Below are positions 27,019-37,388 of a DNA stretch of 45,770 nt, one piece after another. The translations under genes were made by a program, and so were the position numbers. The notes under the pieces are model-generated. The model saw only the letters and a list, made by a program, of their open reading frames with translations. It ran no database searches and had not been told where the DNA came from. Numbering within the stretch: the first letter of the stretch is position 1; each line of letters begins with the position of its first letter. Location: positions 2,062 through 47,831 of the forward strand of contig PHAD01000016.1 of NCBI GenBank assembly GCA_002841595.1. The letters run 5' to 3'. The DNA comes from Firmicutes bacterium HGW-Firmicutes-12 (GTDB taxonomy: Bacteria; Bacillota; Peptococcia; DRI-13; PHAD01).

Positions 27019-27729
27019 ATGAAATTCGAGAACAGTATAAAGTATAATAATAGATATATGCCGGATAATGATATACTAAAGTTTTTTGATGAAATATGTT
27101 TAGCAGGAAATATTGACATAGTAAAAAGGGGTAAAGTTTATTATAGAGCTAGAAGAATAAAACCTGAGAACATAAGACATCATGATGATTATCAATCAAA
27201 ATTCTATGGTTTTAATAAAGAAGAGTGTCTTGCTCCTCCTTCTAATCAAGCCAAAGCGGGAAGGGCAAATCCGAAAAATATTGCATATTTATATTTTGCT
27301 GAAGATGAATATACAGCTTTAGCGGAAGTCAGACCTTCGAGAAAGGATTATATCAGTATTGCAGAGATAGTAACTAATAGCGACTTAAAGTTATTTAGCT
27401 TTAGATTTGTTGAAAAGAATATTTCCAGTGAAAATTATTTAAAGAGAATTATGTCTTGGCTGTCGTATTCATTTGCCTTGCCGGTTGACAATGAAGACGA
27501 AATAGAATATCTCCCTACACAATATCTTGCAGAATACATAAAAAACAGGGGCTTTGATGGAATAAAATATGACAGTTCTCTTGCGGAAGATGGTATAAAT
27601 GTTGCTTTATTTGATCAGACGAAAGCGGAAGCGATAAGTTCAAAAGTATACCAGGTTCAGAGTGTACTGTATATGGCTGCAAGAGAAACACCAGGTGAGG
27701 GTAGGAAGGAATTAACACCGAAGATTTAA
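27019..27729 (+). CDS. RES-domain protein (NAD+ phosphorylase type), N-terminus uncertain
   Basis: 236 residues carrying a RES domain: YYRARRI, GRANPKNIAYLYFAEDEYTALAEVRP, YLPTQYLAEYIKNRGFDGIKYDSS and NVALFDQ. Characterised RES toxins degrade NAD+ and are paired with Xre-type antitoxins; no antitoxin-like gene flanks this one. ATG 27019 has no ribosome site. The same frame upstream reads LDKYIQAHELWM, which looks like coding sequence, as far back as TAA 26971. Beyond that stop lies a further short open stretch from ATG 26941. The 5' end may therefore be broken, or it may use a non-standard start. Confidence 0.7.
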   Translation: MKFENSIKYNNRYMPDNDILKFFDEICLAGNIDIVKRGKVYYRARRIKPENIRHHDDYQSKFYGFNKEECLAPPSNQAKAGRANPKNIAYLYFAEDEYTALAEVRPSRKDYISIAEIVTNSDLKLFSFRFVEKNISSENYLKRIMSWLSYSFALPVDNEDEIEYLPTQYLAEYIKNRGFDGIKYDSSLAEDGINVALFDQTKAEAISSKVYQVQSVLYMAARETPGEGRKELTPKI

Positions 27730-27806
27730 TTCTAGAATTTCTAAAAAACCCATAATAGATTAGTAGTTTCACAACGCATATTATCAAATGAGAAATACTT
27801 TAAAGA

Positions 27807-28724
27807 TCATTCTACTACTGCTAACGCAAAATGAACGTGTTCGCAGGTATAATATCCATCTGAGCGGCCTTGGAAATAGCGTTTTTCAATTTCGTTAGGG
27901 CATAAATTTTCTTGAAGGTGTATGCCTAAGGCGGCTAAATCAGAAGCTAGTATAGATGGTTCTAGGCTTGTTTTCATAGGTTCTCCGGCATATTGGGCCA
28001 TTTGCAGCATTCCTTGTACACGAGCGGCAGCTTTTTCAGGAATAAAGGCATCAGGATCTAGGTAATCGAAAATAATTATACTGCCAGAAGAAGTATTATT
28101 AGAAATATCTTGTAAGGTTGAGAAAACCTCTTCGCGTGATAAATACATAGTTACACCTAGCCAGCTAAAGAAACTGCTTGTATTGGGTTTATAAGATGCG
28201 GTTTTTAAAGAAGAGGCAAGATTGTTTTGGGTAAAATCAACAGGAACAAAATGAAGATGAGATGGTACTGTCCAGGCTAAATCAGCGATTCGTTGGCGCT
28301 TAAATTCCTGCATTCCAAATTGATCAACTTCAAATACATGGATTTCTTTTAACAGTTGTGAGTGACGAAAAGCAAAAGTGTCCATCCCAGCGCCAAGTAT
28401 TACGTATTGGTTAACACCTTGACTGATAGCCTTTAAAAGGATATCTTCAGTAAAACGTGAACGGCTTAGGACATTAGGTGGACCAGTAATGGTCTGCATA
28501 ACTAAAGAAAGGGCTTCTGCTTGCTCTTGACAAGTATCGTAAAGCAGAGGATTTTGGAGCTTAAGTGAATCTGCTAGACCTTGTTCTATGAGGGCCCTTC
28601 TTTCTACTGGAATAAAAGAATACGCTAAGAAGTCATCAAAGATCTTTGGTGTAACATATTTTGAGTGATAGGCTCGTATGTAGGCAGTCATCATAGCGGT
28701 CAGGCTTATTTGGTTCATTTCCAT
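27807..28724 (-). CDS. class I SAM-dependent methyltransferase (LCMT/TIGR00027 type)
   Basis: 305 residues of the leucine-carboxyl-methyltransferase-like O-methyltransferase family. YVILGAGMDTFAFR (SAM motif I), VFEVDQ, HFVPVDF and WLGVTMYLSREEV are the family signature. Targets of bacterial members are mostly unknown. The longer frame opens at TTG 28748; I use ATG 28724, spaced 10 nt from GGAGG. That GGAGG lies inside a long leader hairpin below a strong promoter, so expression is probably controlled after initiation of transcription. Confidence 0.85.
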   Translation of the reverse strand: MEMNQISLTAMMTAYIRAYHSKYVTPKIFDDFLAYSFIPVERRALIEQGLADSLKLQNPLLYDTCQEQAEALSLVMQTITGPPNVLSRSRFTEDILLKAISQGVNQYVILGAGMDTFAFRHSQLLKEIHVFEVDQFGMQEFKRQRIADLAWTVPSHLHFVPVDFTQNNLASSLKTASYKPNTSSFFSWLGVTMYLSREEVFSTLQDISNNTSSGSIIIFDYLDPDAFIPEKAAARVQGMLQMAQYAGEPMKTSLEPSILASDLAALGIHLQENLCPNEIEKRYFQGRSDGYYTCEHVHFALAVVE

Positions 28725-28733
28725 AATAAAAAA

Positions 28734-28772
28734 ACCTCCATTTAACAAGAATAGTCCTTGCTAAATGGAAGT
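28734..28772 (-). promoter_or_regulatory. leader hairpin that sequesters the methyltransferase ribosome site
   Basis: On the minus strand a 16-bp stem (28772-28757 with 28749-28734, only G-U irregularities, 7-nt loop) contains the whole GGAGG (28739-28735) in its 3' arm. It is followed at once by seven U (28734-28728), so it also looks like an intrinsic terminator. A nine-codon ORF including its stop (28787-28761, M W I C Y T S I) ends inside the 5' arm. The geometry resembles translational or transcriptional attenuation. Confidence 0.6.
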
Positions 28773-28812
28773 ATAACAAATCCACATCAGAATGTAAACA
28801 TAGTAAGATTAC

Positions 28813-28841
28813 ATCATAACACGATAAAAATATTTTGTCAA
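28813..28841 (-). promoter_or_regulatory. extended -10 sigma-A promoter of the methyltransferase gene
   Basis: On the minus strand TTGACA (28841-28836), a 17-bp spacer ending in TGT and TATGAT (28818-28813). A transcript starting near 28806 would carry a leader of about 80 nt that holds the hairpin. Confidence 0.7.
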
Positions 28842-29017
28842 GATAAATATATTCTTGTTCATATAGAATGTATACGGACCTCACTTTCAAAAGAATGTTG
28901 AAAAGATAATTAAAGGGATGGAAAGAATATATTATAGAGTAAGAAAATATTTTAAATTAAGAATATAATATAGTTAAGAAATAAAATAGATCAGAGATAT
29001 GAAGGTGAGGTATAAAT

Positions 29018-29767
29018 ATGTGGACAAGAAAAGAGCTTAAAAAAAGAGCCAAAGATGTTTTGAAAAATATTTACTGGAAGGCACTTCTTATAAGTATAGT
29101 AATATATTTAGCTGGAGGTAAATATGGTAGTGATGGCGGCGGGGGAGGCAACAATAGTAACTCAAACGGGGTTTTCCCTCTTGAAATAACAGATCTAAAT
29201 GAATTATTACCTTATTCTATAAGTATATTTGCTGTTGTTCTTTTCTTCACAATATTGATACTTTCGCTACGTATATTTTTAGGATACCCTTTAGAAGTTG
29301 GTGGGAGAAGGTATTTTATACAGTCAGCTTGTTATAATAACAATAAGGGATGTTTTAGATTTGCTTTTGATAGCAATAATTATAAGGGAATAGTACTTAC
29401 AATGCTGCTTAGAGGAGTACAAAATTTTCTCTGGTTCTTATTGTTGATTATCCCAGGGATTATTAAATTGTATTCATATAGAATGGTTCCGTATATTTTA
29501 GCAGATAATCCTAATATAGGAGCTAAGAAGGCTATAAGATTAAGTATTAATATGACGATGGGACATAAGTTCGATATTTTTGTTTTAGACCTATCATTTC
29601 TTGGATGGTATTTACTCGGTGCTTTGGCGTTATTTATTGGAACATTTTTTGTTATGCCCTATGATAATGCAACTAATGCAGAACTATATCTGGTACTGCG
29701 TCAAAATGCACTAGATAATGATTTATGTACTTATGAAGATTTATCCCCAAATGCTATCGAGGTTTAA
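29018..29767 (+). CDS. DUF975 family membrane protein
   Basis: 249 residues with about five hydrophobic segments and the DUF975 signatures RKELKKRAKDVLK at the N-terminus and GHKFDIFVLDLSFLGWYLLG near the C-terminus, ending with the AELYL helix. A low-complexity loop (about 39-50, Gly/Asn/Ser-rich) follows the first membrane segment and probably faces outside. The family's function is unknown. GAAGGTGAGG precedes the ATG. It stands alone between intergenic gaps. Confidence 0.8.
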   Translation: MWTRKELKKRAKDVLKNIYWKALLISIVIYLAGGKYGSDGGGGGNNSNSNGVFPLEITDLNELLPYSISIFAVVLFFTILILSLRIFLGYPLEVGGRRYFIQSACYNNNKGCFRFAFDSNNYKGIVLTMLLRGVQNFLWFLLLIIPGIIKLYSYRMVPYILADNPNIGAKKAIRLSINMTMGHKFDIFVLDLSFLGWYLLGALALFIGTFFVMPYDNATNAELYLVLRQNALDNDLCTYEDLSPNAIEV

Positions 29768-29887
29768 CAAGTATCTTATCTTTTCTAAAAAGCTAGGCTA
29801 TAGCGCGAACAAACTATGGGCACTCGGCTTGGAAAGATGAATAAATGTTATTGACTCCAAGATATTTAAAAAGGAAGATGTGTAAGA

Positions 29888-30850
29888 ATGGAGAAAAGAA
29901 TTTCTTTAGTAACGTTCGCGGGCGGATGCTTTTGGTGTATGGTCAAGCCATTTGACAAGTATCCTGGCGTTATTAAGATTATTTCTGGATATACTGGGGG
30001 ATTTAAGGAGAATCCAACTTATCAAGAGGTTTGTGCAAATGCAACAGGTCATTACGAGGCTGTACAAATTACTTTTGATGCGGATATTATTTCCTATGAA
30101 AGTCTATTGGATATATTCTGGCAGCAGTTTGATCCTACAGATTCAGGAGGGCAGTTCAATGACCGCGGGGAGTCATATCGATCTGCAATCTTTTTTCATG
30201 ATGAAGAGCAAAAGCAAATAGCCGAGAAATCAAAGCAAGCATTAGATGAGAGTAAACGCTTCGATAAACCGATTACTACAGAAATACTTCCAGCAACTAT
30301 CTTTTATCCTGCTGAAACATATCATCAAAATTATTATAAAAAGAATCCCTTTCATTATAAGCTATATCGTCATAGCTCAGGGCGGGATAATTTTATCAGA
30401 AAGCACTGGGGAAACATTGAAAGCAAAATAGAATTAAAGAAGAGATTAACGCCGCTACAATTTGAGGTGACCCAAAATAGTGCAACTGAATCTCCATTTA
30501 AGAATGAGTTTTGGTCTAATAAAAAAGAAGGCATTTACGTAGATATTGTTTCGGGTGAACCCTTGTTTAGTTCAAGGGACAAGTATAATTCGGGCTGCGG
30601 GTGGCCAAGTTTTACGAAAACAATTCATGAAAACAATATTATTGAAAAAGAAGACGTGAGTCACAGCATGTCTCGAACCGAGGTGAGGAGCAAAACTGCG
30701 GATTCTCATCTAGGGCATGTCTTTAATGATGGTCCCGGAGAAAAAGATTTGAGATATTGTATTAATTCTGCAGCTTTAAGATTTATTCCTATAAGAGACT
30801 TAGAAAAAGAGGGTTACGGTGAATATAAAAAGATTTTTGGTGAAGATTAA
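29888..30850 (+). CDS. msrAB: bifunctional methionine sulfoxide reductase MsrA-MsrB
   Basis: 320 residues fusing MsrA (about 5-155) and MsrB (about 175-315), which repair the S and R forms of methionine sulfoxide. MsrA has GGCFWCM with the catalytic Cys14 and the family signature GYTGG. MsrB has SGCGWPSF and the catalytic Cys291 in [11 protein letters not shown]. The zinc CxxC pairs found in some MsrB proteins are absent. There is no signal peptide, so it acts in the cytoplasm. AAGGAAGATGTG is about 8 bp from the ATG. Fits oxidative damage repair in an anaerobe. Confidence 0.95.
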
Positions 30851-30905: not shown

Positions 30906-31682
30906 TTGCATTGGGTATATATTATTGAGTGTAACGATGGCACCTTATATACGGGTTGGACAATTGATATAGACAAAAGGATTGAAAAACACAATAAGGG
31001 ACTGGGTGCAAAATATACACGGACAAGATATCCGGTGGCATTGAAGTATTCAGAAGAGTATGCTACAAAGAGAGAGGCTCTGCAAAGAGAATACTATATT
31101 AAACAAATGTCTAGAATTGAGAAACTGGAATTAATAGTATTGCAAGAAAAAAGTAAAAGTCACAGTATTGGGAGTAGTAACTTGTGTATAAAAAAATCAT
31201 TTAATTCTATAGTAAATGCAAATTCGCGAGTATTAATACTCGGATCTATGCCGGGAGAAGAATCACTTCGAAAACAGGAATACTATGCATATGCAAAAAA
31301 TCAGTTTTGGCCAATCATTTATACTATTTTTGATCGTGAGCTTGATTTGTCCTACGAAAGAAGAGTTGAGTTTCTACTGGAAAAAGGGATAGCCTTATGG
31401 GACGTAATCGAAAGATGTGAAAGAAAAGGAAGCTTGGATGCAAATATAAGGAATGAAAGACCCAATGATATCAATGGATTATTAGAAAACAATCCTAAAA
31501 TTGTATTAGTATGCTTTAATGGAACCAAGGCATACGAAACCTATAAAAAGAAGACGGGATTTCTTAAAGATGATAAGATAAAATATCAAAGACTGCCATC
31601 AACCAGTCCTATTCCCGGAAAGAATATTAAGTCTTTTGCTGAGAAAGTTGAGGACTGGAAAATAATACTTGAATATCTTTAA
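30906..31682 (+). CDS. fusion of GIY-YIG endonuclease and family 6 uracil/hypoxanthine-DNA glycosylase
   Basis: 258 residues in two domains. Residues 1-85 are a UPF0213-type GIY-YIG nuclease: VYIIECNDGTLYTGWT, the arginine in IDKRIEKHN, and the catalytic Glu in LQREYYIKQ. Residues about 95-258 resemble DNA-deoxyinosine (family 6) glycosylases of the UDG fold: LILGSMPGEESL, YYAYAKNQFWP, ALWDVIERCER and LPSTSPIPG. The parts would remove a deaminated base and cut a strand, so a coupled repair enzyme is inferred. The start is TTG, behind GGGGTAACGG. There is no frameshift at the junction. 55 bp downstream of msrAB. Confidence 0.8.
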   Translation: MHWVYIIECNDGTLYTGWTIDIDKRIEKHNKGLGAKYTRTRYPVALKYSEEYATKREALQREYYIKQMSRIEKLELIVLQEKSKSHSIGSSNLCIKKSFNSIVNANSRVLILGSMPGEESLRKQEYYAYAKNQFWPIIYTIFDRELDLSYERRVEFLLEKGIALWDVIERCERKGSLDANIRNERPNDINGLLENNPKIVLVCFNGTKAYETYKKKTGFLKDDKIKYQRLPSTSPIPGKNIKSFAEKVEDWKIILEYL

Positions 31683-33728: not shown

Positions 33729-33861
33729 CCAATTTCCTTTAACAAAATATTAACTTTTATGTAGTATAATCAGATTACAATGTTATATAATGTTAGGGAG
33801 ACTCAATTCCCGGTGGGGGTCAATAAAAGACGCCCACTATTTGACATGGGAGGAAATGGAT

Positions 33862-34602
33862 ATGACACTAAGACCGATATATGAATATCTCCAAGGAATG
33901 AAAGAAGTCAGCTTTTTTTTGGAACAAGTGAAAAAAGGACAGGACTCATTGATATACGGAGTAAGCGGGTCCTTAAAGAGTATGTTAGCTGCAATGATTC
34001 TGAATAATCAGGAGAAACCATTATTATATATAGTGGAAAATATCCAGCGAGGGAAAGAGGTCTTTGATGACTTAAACAATTTATTGCCGGGACATACAGT
34101 CAATTACTATCCAGCACTGGATATATTACCTTTTGAAGTGATAGCCCGTAGCTATGAGACCCAGCGAAAACGCCTCGAGGTGTTGGTCGGTTTGCTTGAG
34201 GGCAGAAAAAATGTAGTTGTTACTACCCTTGAAGCTATCAGCAAGGTGCTGATCTCACCAAAACTATTTCGATCAGTAGCATTTAATCTAAGGGTTAAAG
34301 ACAGGATAGATACTGTCTTGTTATTGGAACGACTCTTATCTTTGGGGTATCAGCGTGTAGATATGGTTGAAGGTAAAGGACAGTTTTCGCTACGGGGGGG
34401 TATTTTGGATATATATAGTTCCATTAGTGAAAACCCACTCAGATTAGAACTGTTTGACGATGAAATAGAATCTATTCGTCTTTTTTCTGCTGAGAATCAA
34501 CGTTCTATAAGTAAGCTGGAAGAGGTAGTTGTTTATCCGGCAGCCGAGTTTTTCATGGCGGGCCAAGAAAAAAAATTCAAAAAGAGGCCAAGCAACAGTT
34601 GA
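33862..34602 (+). CDS. mfd: transcription-repair coupling factor Mfd, N-terminal part (split gene)
   Basis: This frame encodes the UvrB-like N-terminal module of Mfd: GVSGSLKSMLAA, YYPALDILPFEV, TRSYETQRKR-type helix (SYETQRKRLEVL), FSLRGGILDIYS and LELFDDEIESIR. It runs on to MAGQEKKFKK, then meets a stop at 34602. The expected continuation (KEAKQQLKSIEKRGAREAYD) is present at once in the -1 frame. I prefer ATG 33862, with GGGAGGAA 8 bp upstream, over ATG 33790. The shift occurs near a run of eight A (34568-34575). Joined, the two parts give about 1175 residues, the normal Mfd length. Confidence 0.85.
   Translation: MTLRPIYEYLQGMKEVSFFLEQVKKGQDSLIYGVSGSLKSMLAAMILNNQEKPLLYIVENIQRGKEVFDDLNNLLPGHTVNYYPALDILPFEVIARSYETQRKRLEVLVGLLEGRKNVVVTTLEAISKVLISPKLFRSVAFNLRVKDRIDTVLLLERLLSLGYQRVDMVEGKGQFSLRGGILDIYSSISENPLRLELFDDEIESIRLFSAENQRSISKLEEVVVYPAAEFFMAGQEKKFKKRPSNS
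34568..34575 (+). other. A8 run at the mfd frameshift
   Basis: Eight consecutive A, read as GAA AAA AAA TTC in the upstream frame, form an A AAA AAA heptamer, the classical bacterial -1 slippery sequence. One extra A would also restore a continuous gene. Confidence 0.8.
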
Positions 34603-37388
34603 AAAGCATAGAAAAAAGAGGAGCTCGAGAAGCTTATGACAGTCTTTTTTCCAGGATGCAAGAAGTTGTAGAAAATATTAAGGAAGATCAGTATTTTCCT
34701 GGGTACGAACAATATCTACCTTATTTCTCGGATAAGAAATATTCGTTGCTTGATTATTTTAATGAAACACCTCTTCTTATTATGGATGAGCCTAATCGAC
34801 AAAGAGAGGGCTTTTTACAAAGTCAAAAAGAGACACAGGAGACATATAAGATACTTCTCGAAAAGGGTCGGGTTTTTCCAGGGCAAATTGATAATTATTA
34901 TCAGATAGAAGAAATTTTGCATAACCTAAAGAATTGTTCCAAAGTATTCTTTTCGCTATTACCCAAAAAACCTAATGGATTTGAGAAAATCAATCTTTTA
35001 AGCATTACGGCTAAAACACCAGGTCTTTTTATGGGAAAAACACGTCTTTTGGTCGACGAGTTGAAAGAATGGTTGCGGCAAAGATTGGCTACCTTGATTT
35101 ATGTAAATTCAATTGAACGTAGCCAACGTTTAAAGCAGGGTCTATGGGATTTGGGTATTGAGGCAATAGTTATAACTGATGATAAAGAACTCAATCTTCA
35201 GCCCGAGAAAATATATATTACTACAGGTCATTTAACGGGCGGCTTTGAATTGCCTGTTTGGAAACTAGCAGTTCTGACGGAACATGAGCTTTTTCACCAA
35301 CCTAAAAAACGTGCTCCGCGCAAGATTTTCTTGGAAGGAAAACGTGTTAACATACTTGAGGATCTAAAAATTGGTGACTATGTTGTTCATACAAACCATG
35401 GGATTGGCCGTTATATGGGTATTGAGAAATTGGCCGTTGGTGAGGCTGAGCGTGACTACCTTGTCATTAAATACCAGGGTGAAGATAAGCTTTACGTGCC
35501 TACAGAACAGTCAGGAATGCTACAAAAATACTTCAATCAGGAGGGGCAGTCACCCAAATTATCGAAACTGGGTGGAAACGAGTGGAATAAGATTAAGAGC
35601 AAGGTTAAGGGTGCAGTAAAAGAATTGGCTGATGATCTTCTTAAGCTATATGCTGCACGTGAAGCTCAACCAGGGTATGCTTTTTCTGCTGATTTATCGT
35701 GGCAAAATGATTTTGAAGAAGCTTTTCCTTATGAGGAGACGGCTGATCAGAAGCGGGCTATTAGTGAAGTTAAGCAGGATATGGAGAAGCCGCGTCCGAT
35801 GGATAGATTGCTTTGTGGAGATGTAGGCTATGGAAAAACGGAAGTTGCTATACGCGCAGCTTTTAAAGCAGTAACGGATGGTAAGCAAGTAGCAGTATTG
35901 GTGCCCACTACAGTTTTAGCCCAACAGCACTATAATACCTTTCGGGAGAGATTTGAAGGATTTGCAGTTAATGTTGGAGTATTAAGTCGTTTTCGTAATC
36001 CCAAGGAACAAAAAGATACACTAAAAGAGCTTAGGTCGGGAAAGATTGATATTATTATTGGGACACACCGACTGCTTTCGCAGGATGTAAAGTTTAAAGA
36101 TCTAAGTCTAGTGGTTGTAGATGAGGAGCAGCGTTTCGGCGTTGTACATAAAGAAAAACTCAAAAAACTGAGAAAAACGGTTGATGTACTCACCCTTACA
36201 GCTACTCCTATACCTAGAACTCTCCACATGGCATTAGTAGGAGCTCGTGATATGAGTGTAATAGAAACACCTCCTGAAGATCGTTACCCTGTTCAAACAT
36301 TCGTAGTGGAGCATAGTTCGCAGCTTATTCGTGAAGCAATAAGAAGAGAACTAGGACGAGGCGGCCAAGTTTATTATGTTCATAACCGTATTGAAGATAT
36401 TGACAGAGTAGCTAGTTTCGTTAGAGAGTTAGTACCCGAAGCAACTATTGGGGTTGGACATGGTCGAGTCACGGAAGAACAATTAGAAAAAGTTATGTTG
36501 GATTTTATGGAAGGCAGGCTCGATGTACTCGTTAGTACAACTATTATTGAATCGGGCTTAGATATATCAAACGTCAATACTCTAATAATCGATGATGCTG
36601 ATAAGCTCGGACTCTCGCAGCTTTATCAGCTCAGAGGTAGGGTTGGGCGTTCTAATAGGGTTGCCTATGCGTATTTAACTTATAATAAAGACAAGGTACT
36701 CTCTGAGGTAGCTGAGAAAAGATTGAACGCCATCCGGGAGTTTACGGAGCTAGGTTCTGGATTTAAAATTGCTATGAAAGATTTAGAAATTAGAGGTGCC
36801 GGTAACATCTTGGGAGCCGAGCAGCATGGTCATGTTGCTGCAGTAGGCTTTGATTTGTATTGCCGAATGCTAGAAGAAGCAGTTAAAGAAGCAAAAGGTG
36901 AAGAAAAGCCGAAAGAAAGGGATATAACCATAGACTTACAGGTTAAAGCCTTTATACCGCAAGATTATATTTGTGATACCGGTACAAAAATTGATTTCTA
37001 TCAAAGAATATATGCTGCTAGAGAGATTAAAGAGATAGAAGGATTGAAAGAAGAACTAGGAGATAGATATGGAACATTGCCGGAACCACTTCAGAATCTT
37101 TTAGAGATTGCTTCCATAAAGGTAATGGCTAGTAGATCTAAAATCTATGCAGTTTTGCAAGAGAAAGATCTGATTAAGATTAAGATAGAAGAAAACCATG
37201 GCCTTTCCGGCAAAGATCTAATGGAACTAGCCAGAAGATACCGTCGGCAAGTAAGTTTTAGTGTATCAACCGGATTAGAAATTATGGTAAACACGCAAAG
37301 GTTAGATATTGAAAGGGTTTTAAAACTCTTAGAAGAAGTAGTCATGGAAATATCAACTATTGCTGAAAGAGCGACCGTGCTGTTATAA
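34599..37388 (+). CDS. mfd: transcription-repair coupling factor Mfd, main part (split gene)
   Basis: Mfd removes RNA polymerase stalled at lesions and recruits UvrA. This 929-residue frame has the rest of the UvrB-like region, the RNA-polymerase-interaction domain (GDYVVHTNHGIGRYMGIEKL), and the RecG-like translocase with LLCGDVGYGKTEVA (Walker A), VVDEEQRFGV (DEEQ box), TATPIPRTLHMAL, STTIIESGLDI, QLRGRVGRSN and the C-terminal TRCF domain. The TTG at 34599 overlaps the upstream stop by 4 bp and has no good ribosome site, so it is not a credible independent start. Either a frameshift (real or an assembly error) or programmed slippage joins it to the upstream frame. Confidence 0.92.
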   Translation: MKSIEKRGAREAYDSLFSRMQEVVENIKEDQYFPGYEQYLPYFSDKKYSLLDYFNETPLLIMDEPNRQREGFLQSQKETQETYKILLEKGRVFPGQIDNYYQIEEILHNLKNCSKVFFSLLPKKPNGFEKINLLSITAKTPGLFMGKTRLLVDELKEWLRQRLATLIYVNSIERSQRLKQGLWDLGIEAIVITDDKELNLQPEKIYITTGHLTGGFELPVWKLAVLTEHELFHQPKKRAPRKIFLEGKRVNILEDLKIGDYVVHTNHGIGRYMGIEKLAVGEAERDYLVIKYQGEDKLYVPTEQSGMLQKYFNQEGQSPKLSKLGGNEWNKIKSKVKGAVKELADDLLKLYAAREAQPGYAFSADLSWQNDFEEAFPYEETADQKRAISEVKQDMEKPRPMDRLLCGDVGYGKTEVAIRAAFKAVTDGKQVAVLVPTTVLAQQHYNTFRERFEGFAVNVGVLSRFRNPKEQKDTLKELRSGKIDIIIGTHRLLSQDVKFKDLSLVVVDEEQRFGVVHKEKLKKLRKTVDVLTLTATPIPRTLHMALVGARDMSVIETPPEDRYPVQTFVVEHSSQLIREAIRRELGRGGQVYYVHNRIEDIDRVASFVRELVPEATIGVGHGRVTEEQLEKVMLDFMEGRLDVLVSTTIIESGLDISNVNTLIIDDADKLGLSQLYQLRGRVGRSNRVAYAYLTYNKDKVLSEVAEKRLNAIREFTELGSGFKIAMKDLEIRGAGNILGAEQHGHVAAVGFDLYCRMLEEAVKEAKGEEKPKERDITIDLQVKAFIPQDYICDTGTKIDFYQRIYAAREIKEIEGLKEELGDRYGTLPEPLQNLLEIASIKVMASRSKIYAVLQEKDLIKIKIEENHGLSGKDLMELARRYRRQVSFSVSTGLEIMVNTQRLDIERVLKLLEEVVMEISTIAERATVLL

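Follow-up and report, generated by a model that had tools for sequence, protein, structure and literature searches.

The leader of a methyltransferase gene was found to carry two promoters of the same orientation, together with a hairpin that begins, with its 5' arm, on the second of them, a module conserved with the TIGR00027 methyltransferase family. It lies in the window analyzed here, a 45,770-nucleotide stretch of contig PHAD01000016.1 of Firmicutes bacterium HGW-Firmicutes-12. From the sequence comparisons described below, we are somewhat inclined to read this leader as a promoter-choice attenuator, in which the upstream promoter (P1) would yield a long, silenced RNA and the downstream promoter (P2) a short, productive one.

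Promoters and hairpin in the window leader

P1 is a sigma-A promoter on the minus strand (28813..28841), with TTGACA at 28841-28836, a 17-bp spacer and the extended -10 TG-T-TATGAT at 28821-28813. It scored 11 of 12 in a consensus promoter scan, and from its predicted start (~28804, minus strand) to the methyltransferase ATG at 28724 the leader is about 80 nt long. The same scan picked up P2, overlooked in the original prediction, 43 bp downstream on the same strand: a sequence of sigma-A type (28770..28798, minus strand; TTTACA-17-TATACT with a TG extended -10; 10 of 12) with a predicted start at about 28762 (A). The P2 -10 shares its last three bases with the beginning of the hairpin 5' arm, ACTTCCATTTAGCAAGGA (28755..28772, minus strand, from the fold). 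The 3' arm (28734..28751, minus strand, from the fold and the arm-swap permutation test described below) contains the entire Shine-Dalgarno (SD) sequence of the methyltransferase, GGAGG (28735..28739, minus strand), and directly behind the stem lies a terminator-like U7 tract (28728..28734, minus strand), the first U of which closes the stem. P1, the hairpin, GGAGG, U7, ATG 28724 and an upstream ORF had been described in the original prediction, and all of them were present on the minus strand where it had placed them. The hairpin had been drawn at 28772-28734 with 16 bp; the location held and the size did not, as the fold yields 18 pairs, three of them G-U, around a 3-nt loop.

When the RNA of 28806-28720 was folded, a check that had been proposed with the original prediction, an energy of -26.2 kcal/mol was obtained, compared with -12.1 ± 2.4 in dinucleotide shuffles (z = -5.95), and none of 200 shuffles folded as well. 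The hairpin is real, with 18 bp, GGAGG fully paired and U7 behind it. It was the only terminator-like site in 27500-29900, in a loose scan that gives 1.1 sites on average in shuffles. A known RNA family or riboswitch was discarded after an Rfam search of the leader, which gave no match at gathering score and three below threshold, the best with 21.2 bits where 48 are required; likewise, no conserved aptamer-like domain was found between P1 and the hairpin. A repeat or mobile element was also rejected, since the leader is single-copy in its own genome and its sole additional match there is an 18-bp piece.

Furthermore, the RNAs of both promoters were folded from their predicted starts, and the accessibility of the SD was taken as its unpaired probability. 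The entire hairpin is present in the P1 RNA (start ~28804), and the partner arm of GGAGG is missing from the P2 RNA (start ~28762); by the coordinates, GGAGG is left with no pairing partner wherever P2 transcription begins 4 nt or more past the -10. The predicted unpaired probability of the SD was 0.00 in the P1 RNA versus 0.59 in the P2 RNA, and the terminator-like stem was predicted at -21.5 kcal/mol in the former versus -1.2 kcal/mol left in the latter. From these folds, a short silent RNA is expected of P1 and the message of P2. A transcript start downstream of 28757, with which no hairpin can form, had been named beforehand as evidence against an attenuator; the predicted P2 start (~28762) nearly matches this case and is read here as the proposed ON state.

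In the proposed mechanism, the stronger upstream P1 would produce an RNA whose hairpin ends transcription, hides the ribosome site or does both, leaving it short and unproductive. As the hairpin 5' arm overlies the P2 -10 and start, the P2 RNA would lack the outer arm, carry no terminator, keep its SD free and be the productive message. P1 traffic would also hold P2 down: with its footprint, RNA polymerase cannot occupy both promoters at a spacing of 28-43 bp, and P1 should therefore interfere with P2. Anything that moved initiation from P1 to P2 would turn the gene on. We infer the use of P2, the silence of the P1 RNA and the interference between the promoters. By analogy with other systems, the leading guesses for the signal are a transcription inhibitor or altered initiating nucleotides.

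The upstream ORF of eight codons, MWICYTSI (28761..28787, minus strand; ATG 28787, TAG 28763-28761), had been put forward as a leader peptide of the erm/cat type, on which a stalled ribosome would open the hairpin. In erm and cat translational attenuators, a leader hairpin buries the SD in its 3' arm, and the present leader is like them in that the SD of the main gene is sequestered (unpaired probability 0.00 in the P1 RNA) in the 3' arm and the ORF ends within the 5' arm. Unlike erm and cat, it has no conserved leader peptide with an SD of its own: no SD precedes ATG 28787, as the original prediction had itself noted, and MWICYTSI is missing from nearly all homologous leaders. Most of the ORF is made up of the P2 spacer and -10, and the remainder is part of the hairpin 5' arm. 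Since its bases are already explained by P2, and both an SD and conservation are missing, the leader-peptide reading is unsupported and MWICYTSI is judged not to be functional. The hairpins of two of the three leader classes described below (A and C) are, moreover, terminators located upstream of the SD, and translational attenuation through this ORF is considered very improbable.

The module in homologous leaders

The layout of two promoters and a hairpin was found in about 60 leaders of the TIGR00027 family, spread over the Bacillota, which fall into classes with unrelated hairpin sequences. Class A comprises 45 distinct leaders from Bacilli, with a terminator beginning at the P2 -10, abutting promoters and a P1-P2 offset of 27-28 bp; the near-invariant leader reads TTGACA-N17-TATAATTTACA-N17-TATAATAAGATTCTCCTGGCCAGGGGAATCTTATTTTTT, followed by the SD and start codon, and a leader of this class was confirmed before the B. 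sonorensis homolog (L103). Class C (L076, L078, L080 and L100, of the Neobacillus group) has a terminator unlike that of class A and an offset of 38-39 bp. Class B, which includes the window, L035, L038, L004, L039, L043, L062, L069, L107 and others, has an SD-hiding stem (for example, 5' arm CTTCTTTTTAG opposite CTAAAAGGAG) and an offset of 39-45 bp. P1 is kept in all homologous leaders of the three classes, the core 5' arm begins within a few bases of the P2 -10 end in class A, class C and most of class B, and the offset between the 5' arm and P2 is conserved across homologous leaders.

The hairpins are terminators in Bacilli and SD-hiding stems in the group of the window, and the window hairpin has both features by its sequence, being the only one that combines SD hiding with a U tract immediately behind. 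The terminator-type attenuator, raised before as an option, is supported in part: the hairpin is a plain intrinsic terminator in the Bacilli homologs, and in the window it is terminator-like and SD-hiding together. In an intrinsic-terminator attenuator, a stem and its U tract separate the promoter from the gene, and the same arrangement is seen here (U7 in the window; a median of -16.3 kcal/mol in the P1 RNA of class A).

The comparison of orthologous leaders that had been suggested for the stem gave pair replacements in class A and arms that fit their own partner in classes B and C. The stem-pair counts are those of class A, as the MAFFT alignment of the class B hairpin was badly anchored and was left out. 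In the class A stem, 98.8% of 585 cells were paired; A-U, G-U and G-C alternate at two pairs, and U-G, U-A and C-G at a third. When the arms of classes B and C were combined with their own partners, the mean was -15.4 kcal/mol, compared with -10.0 kcal/mol for swapped partners (0 of 50,000 permutations), and in seven diverse class B leaders the swap gave 7 of 50,000 permutations; these figures are indicative, since the permutations ignore tree kinship. The attenuator with a buried ribosome site, the core of the original prediction, is backed by both the folding and this coupled evolution of the arms. A longer form of the class A hairpin, with additional outer pairs between the P2 spacer and the SD region, was striking in single folds and was dropped after permutation: it is not claimed because matched pairs were no better than swapped ones (-4.70 versus -4.46; 3130 of 20,000 permutations).

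P2 was evaluated in the same leaders. The information content of class A was 1.8-2.0 bits in the promoter hexamers (1.1 at the weakest position), mostly 1.4-2.0 in the stem and mostly 0.2-1.1 in the P2 spacer. The P2 hexamers are conserved and the spacer is not, and therefore P2 appears to be kept as a promoter and not as part of a long identical block. The class A P2 scored 10.7 versus 8.0 of 12 in dinucleotide shuffles, and the enrichment combined over ten representative leaders of classes B and C had p = 7.6e-6; the window P2 alone was only marginally above chance (p about 0.06). Additionally, 301 Bacilli genomes were searched for the class A promoter pattern without reference to the gene behind it; there were 10 matches, all directly before this methyltransferase, and the reversed-pattern control gave none. 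The looser class B pattern also matched three leaders of a small gene encoding a Veg-like protein (L137, L138 and L139), so that tandem promoters at class B spacing stand before this gene in three genomes. One viral match (L140) was set aside as unrelated.

In the predicted folds of class A, the median terminator had -16.3 kcal/mol in the P1 RNA, and 36 of 37 P2 RNAs were without a terminator by the criterion used. As in the window, the SD was freed in the predicted P2 RNA of L035, L038, L039, L043 and L062, less clearly in L004 and L107; it was predicted not to be freed in L007, L008, L013, L058 and L059, which speaks against the proposed mechanism. Also against it, the predicted P2 start falls on pyrimidines in class A, where a start 5 nt after the P2 -10 would keep 6 stem pairs. 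The sequence of the class A P2 start region, TTCTCCTGGCCAGGGGAA, is nearly invariant across many genera, loop included, and a U-G pair is retained in 40 of 45 leaders, which hints at an extra constraint on this stem beyond the needs of a terminator. In L069 (2910-2940; Pelosinus fermentans), the P2 -35 lies inside another palindrome, AACTTGACA-AACATA-TGTCAAGTT.

About half of the methyltransferase homologs are without the module, including a close one (L037, 62% identity), and the module is therefore dispensable for the gene. Orthologs lacking the stem, which had been named as evidence against the attenuator, do exist in that half. In a methyltransferase tree built by a quick method, with many weak branches, class A fell within a single 49-row clade, in which 44 rows carry the module, and the class B members were scattered among module-less leaders.

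Known systems and alternative explanations

In pyrC of E. coli and Salmonella, the choice of start is the switch: the longer RNA folds a hairpin over its SD, and the RNA that begins a few bases further on does not. The present leader is similar in that, by the predicted folds, the SD-hiding hairpin belongs to the longer RNA only; unlike pyrC, where the alternative starts of one promoter lie a few bases apart and no terminator is involved, it uses two promoters, separated by 28-45 bp among the homologs, and most members also have a terminator. A further parallel is found in the long undecoded isoforms of yeast, such as that of NDC80, in which the distal promoter drives a long RNA that goes undecoded while repressing the proximal promoter, the productive one. 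The same relation is proposed here, although NDC80 depends on upstream ORFs and chromatin, and the bacterial leader is compact and would be silenced by a single hairpin.

Among systems that respond to rifampicin, the helD/pps alarm of B. subtilis has convergent promoters with starts about 39 bp apart, one of them yielding a short terminated RNA (PMC12802891). It is like the present leader in having two promoters, one of which gives only a short terminated RNA and restrains the productive one, and in acting in cis with no dedicated regulator; the promoters of helD/pps face each other, whereas here they point in the same direction and the unproductive RNA is marked by the hairpin (PMC12802891). 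In mycobacterial rpoBC, an upstream promoter restrains a downstream sense promoter until rifampicin blocks the upstream one, a lowering of downstream output that is also proposed here (PMC6181997). The rpoBC mechanism differs in that it needs the inter-promoter region, and it is not reported to involve a hairpin over the second promoter (PMC6181997). In view of these systems, a transcription inhibitor is a reasonable candidate for the signal. In Actinobacteria, the palindrome of the rifamycin-associated element (RAE) is located on the second of two sense promoters, as noted by the authors of the helD/pps study (PMC12802891), and the leaders of actinobacterial helR/helD share this layout with the present one (PMC10719064). 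Compared by layout, the RAE is a 19-bp palindrome over the P2 -35 that is read as a DNA site, and the palindrome here covers 39 bp from the P2 -10, varies between lineages and comes with G-U pairs and a U tract or SD (PMC10719064).

More tentatively, the module may be a widespread, self-contained switch that senses the state of initiation without a regulator, with the P1 RNA as a decoy and the hairpin 5' arm doubling as the P2 -10 and start, a bacterial counterpart of long undecoded isoforms; this wider proposal is possible but not favored. No description of tandem promoters with a hairpin over the second promoter was found in the open-access literature searched, which is weak evidence of novelty. 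If the promoter-choice reading is right, promoter choice would be made into an on/off switch by one short DNA stretch and no protein regulator, and the logic of the switch would have been retained although different lineages acquired different hairpin sequences. The leader would then offer a defined system for gene control by overlapping-promoter interference, alongside the recent rifampicin alarm, and would point to a response-gene role, often on plasmids or prophages, for the TIGR00027 family.

A simpler account takes P1 as the sole true promoter and lets a ligand, a protein or an RNA open the hairpin, with P2 being accidental or a sigma-dependent pause site. The strong hairpin and U tract of the P1 RNA suit it, as does the window P2 taken alone (p = 0.06), and sequences resembling a -10 are able to pause polymerase when they lie in the early transcribed region. 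It does not explain why the -35 and -10 of P2 are kept at 17 bp around a variable spacer or why P2 is enriched across representatives (p = 7.6e-6), and the interval from P1 to the hairpin holds no conserved aptamer-like domain, nor did Rfam give a match at gathering score; it was considered unlikely. Alternatively, an unlinked repressor could bind the palindrome at the P2 start. Such binding has been proposed for the RAE, which sits on the second of two sense promoters (PMC12802891, PMC10719064); the near-invariance of the class A palindrome over many genera, loop included, would agree with a DNA operator. However, the palindrome is wholly different between classes, and its asymmetries are mostly G-U (three of three in the window; 57 versus 7 other mismatches in class A, with 40 of the 57 at one pair), an excess that is as expected for RNA. 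The U tract or the SD position is also conserved along with the stem and no linked regulator was found among the neighbors, and we regard such an operator as rather improbable.

The promoter-choice reading also has a specific form, whose probability overlaps with its own, an alarm for RNA polymerase inhibitors in which rifamycin-like drugs would be sensed by the tandem pair, much as by the convergent helD/pps pair, and the methyltransferase would give protection from those drugs. Responses to rifampicin are known for both the helD/pps dual-promoter alarm and the tandem promoters of rpoBC (PMC12802891, PMC6181997), and helD and a tetR gene are found close to one of the plasmid copies (L005); helD was nevertheless not recurrent among the neighbors. 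In synthetic tandem promoters, rifampicin strengthened attenuation (PMC11339919). With P1 and P2 28-43 bp apart, a polymerase halted at the former would also sit over the latter, and shortening the helD pair abolished induction (PMC12802891). Because of this possible block and the lost response of the shortened pair, an alarm of this kind was given a low probability.

The methyltransferase gene and its surroundings

The gene behind the leader (27807..28724, minus strand, ATG 28724) encodes a class I SAM-dependent methyltransferase of 305 aa of the LCM/TIGR00027 family, with matches to Pfam PF04072 (E = 5.8e-46) and NCBIfam TIGR00027 (E = 4.8e-49). This family is common and uncharacterised, and its member stands alone in the window. 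No relatives were found in 46 genomes of the class of the window; homologs are scattered across Bacillota, some on plasmids and some in prophage contigs, and further ones occur in Chloroflexota, deltaproteobacterial and Methanosarcina genomes. We take yktD to be the B. subtilis homolog, for which no regulation data were found in the literature searched. No neighbor family was present in more than 6 of ~105 methyltransferase loci; hence there is no linked regulator, and the gene appears to move alone with its leader, which accompanies it on plasmids and prophage contigs too.

In the viral contigs L141, L142 and L144, as in L120 and L121, prophages are apparently inserted within the 5' part of the methyltransferase gene, with the leader and first codons at one contig end and the remaining gene at the other. 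The gene seems to be a prophage attachment site.

Three loci on the plus strand of the window were also recorded. An ORF at 29888-30850 encodes an MsrA-MsrB methionine sulfoxide reductase fusion (PMSR and SelR domains), and a single ORF at 30906-31682 fuses a GIY-YIG nuclease domain with a domain of the uracil-DNA-glycosylase superfamily. An mfd-like gene is split into two overlapping ORFs (33790-34602 and 34599-37388), the first with the UvrB-interaction domain, which may reflect a frameshift or a sequencing error.
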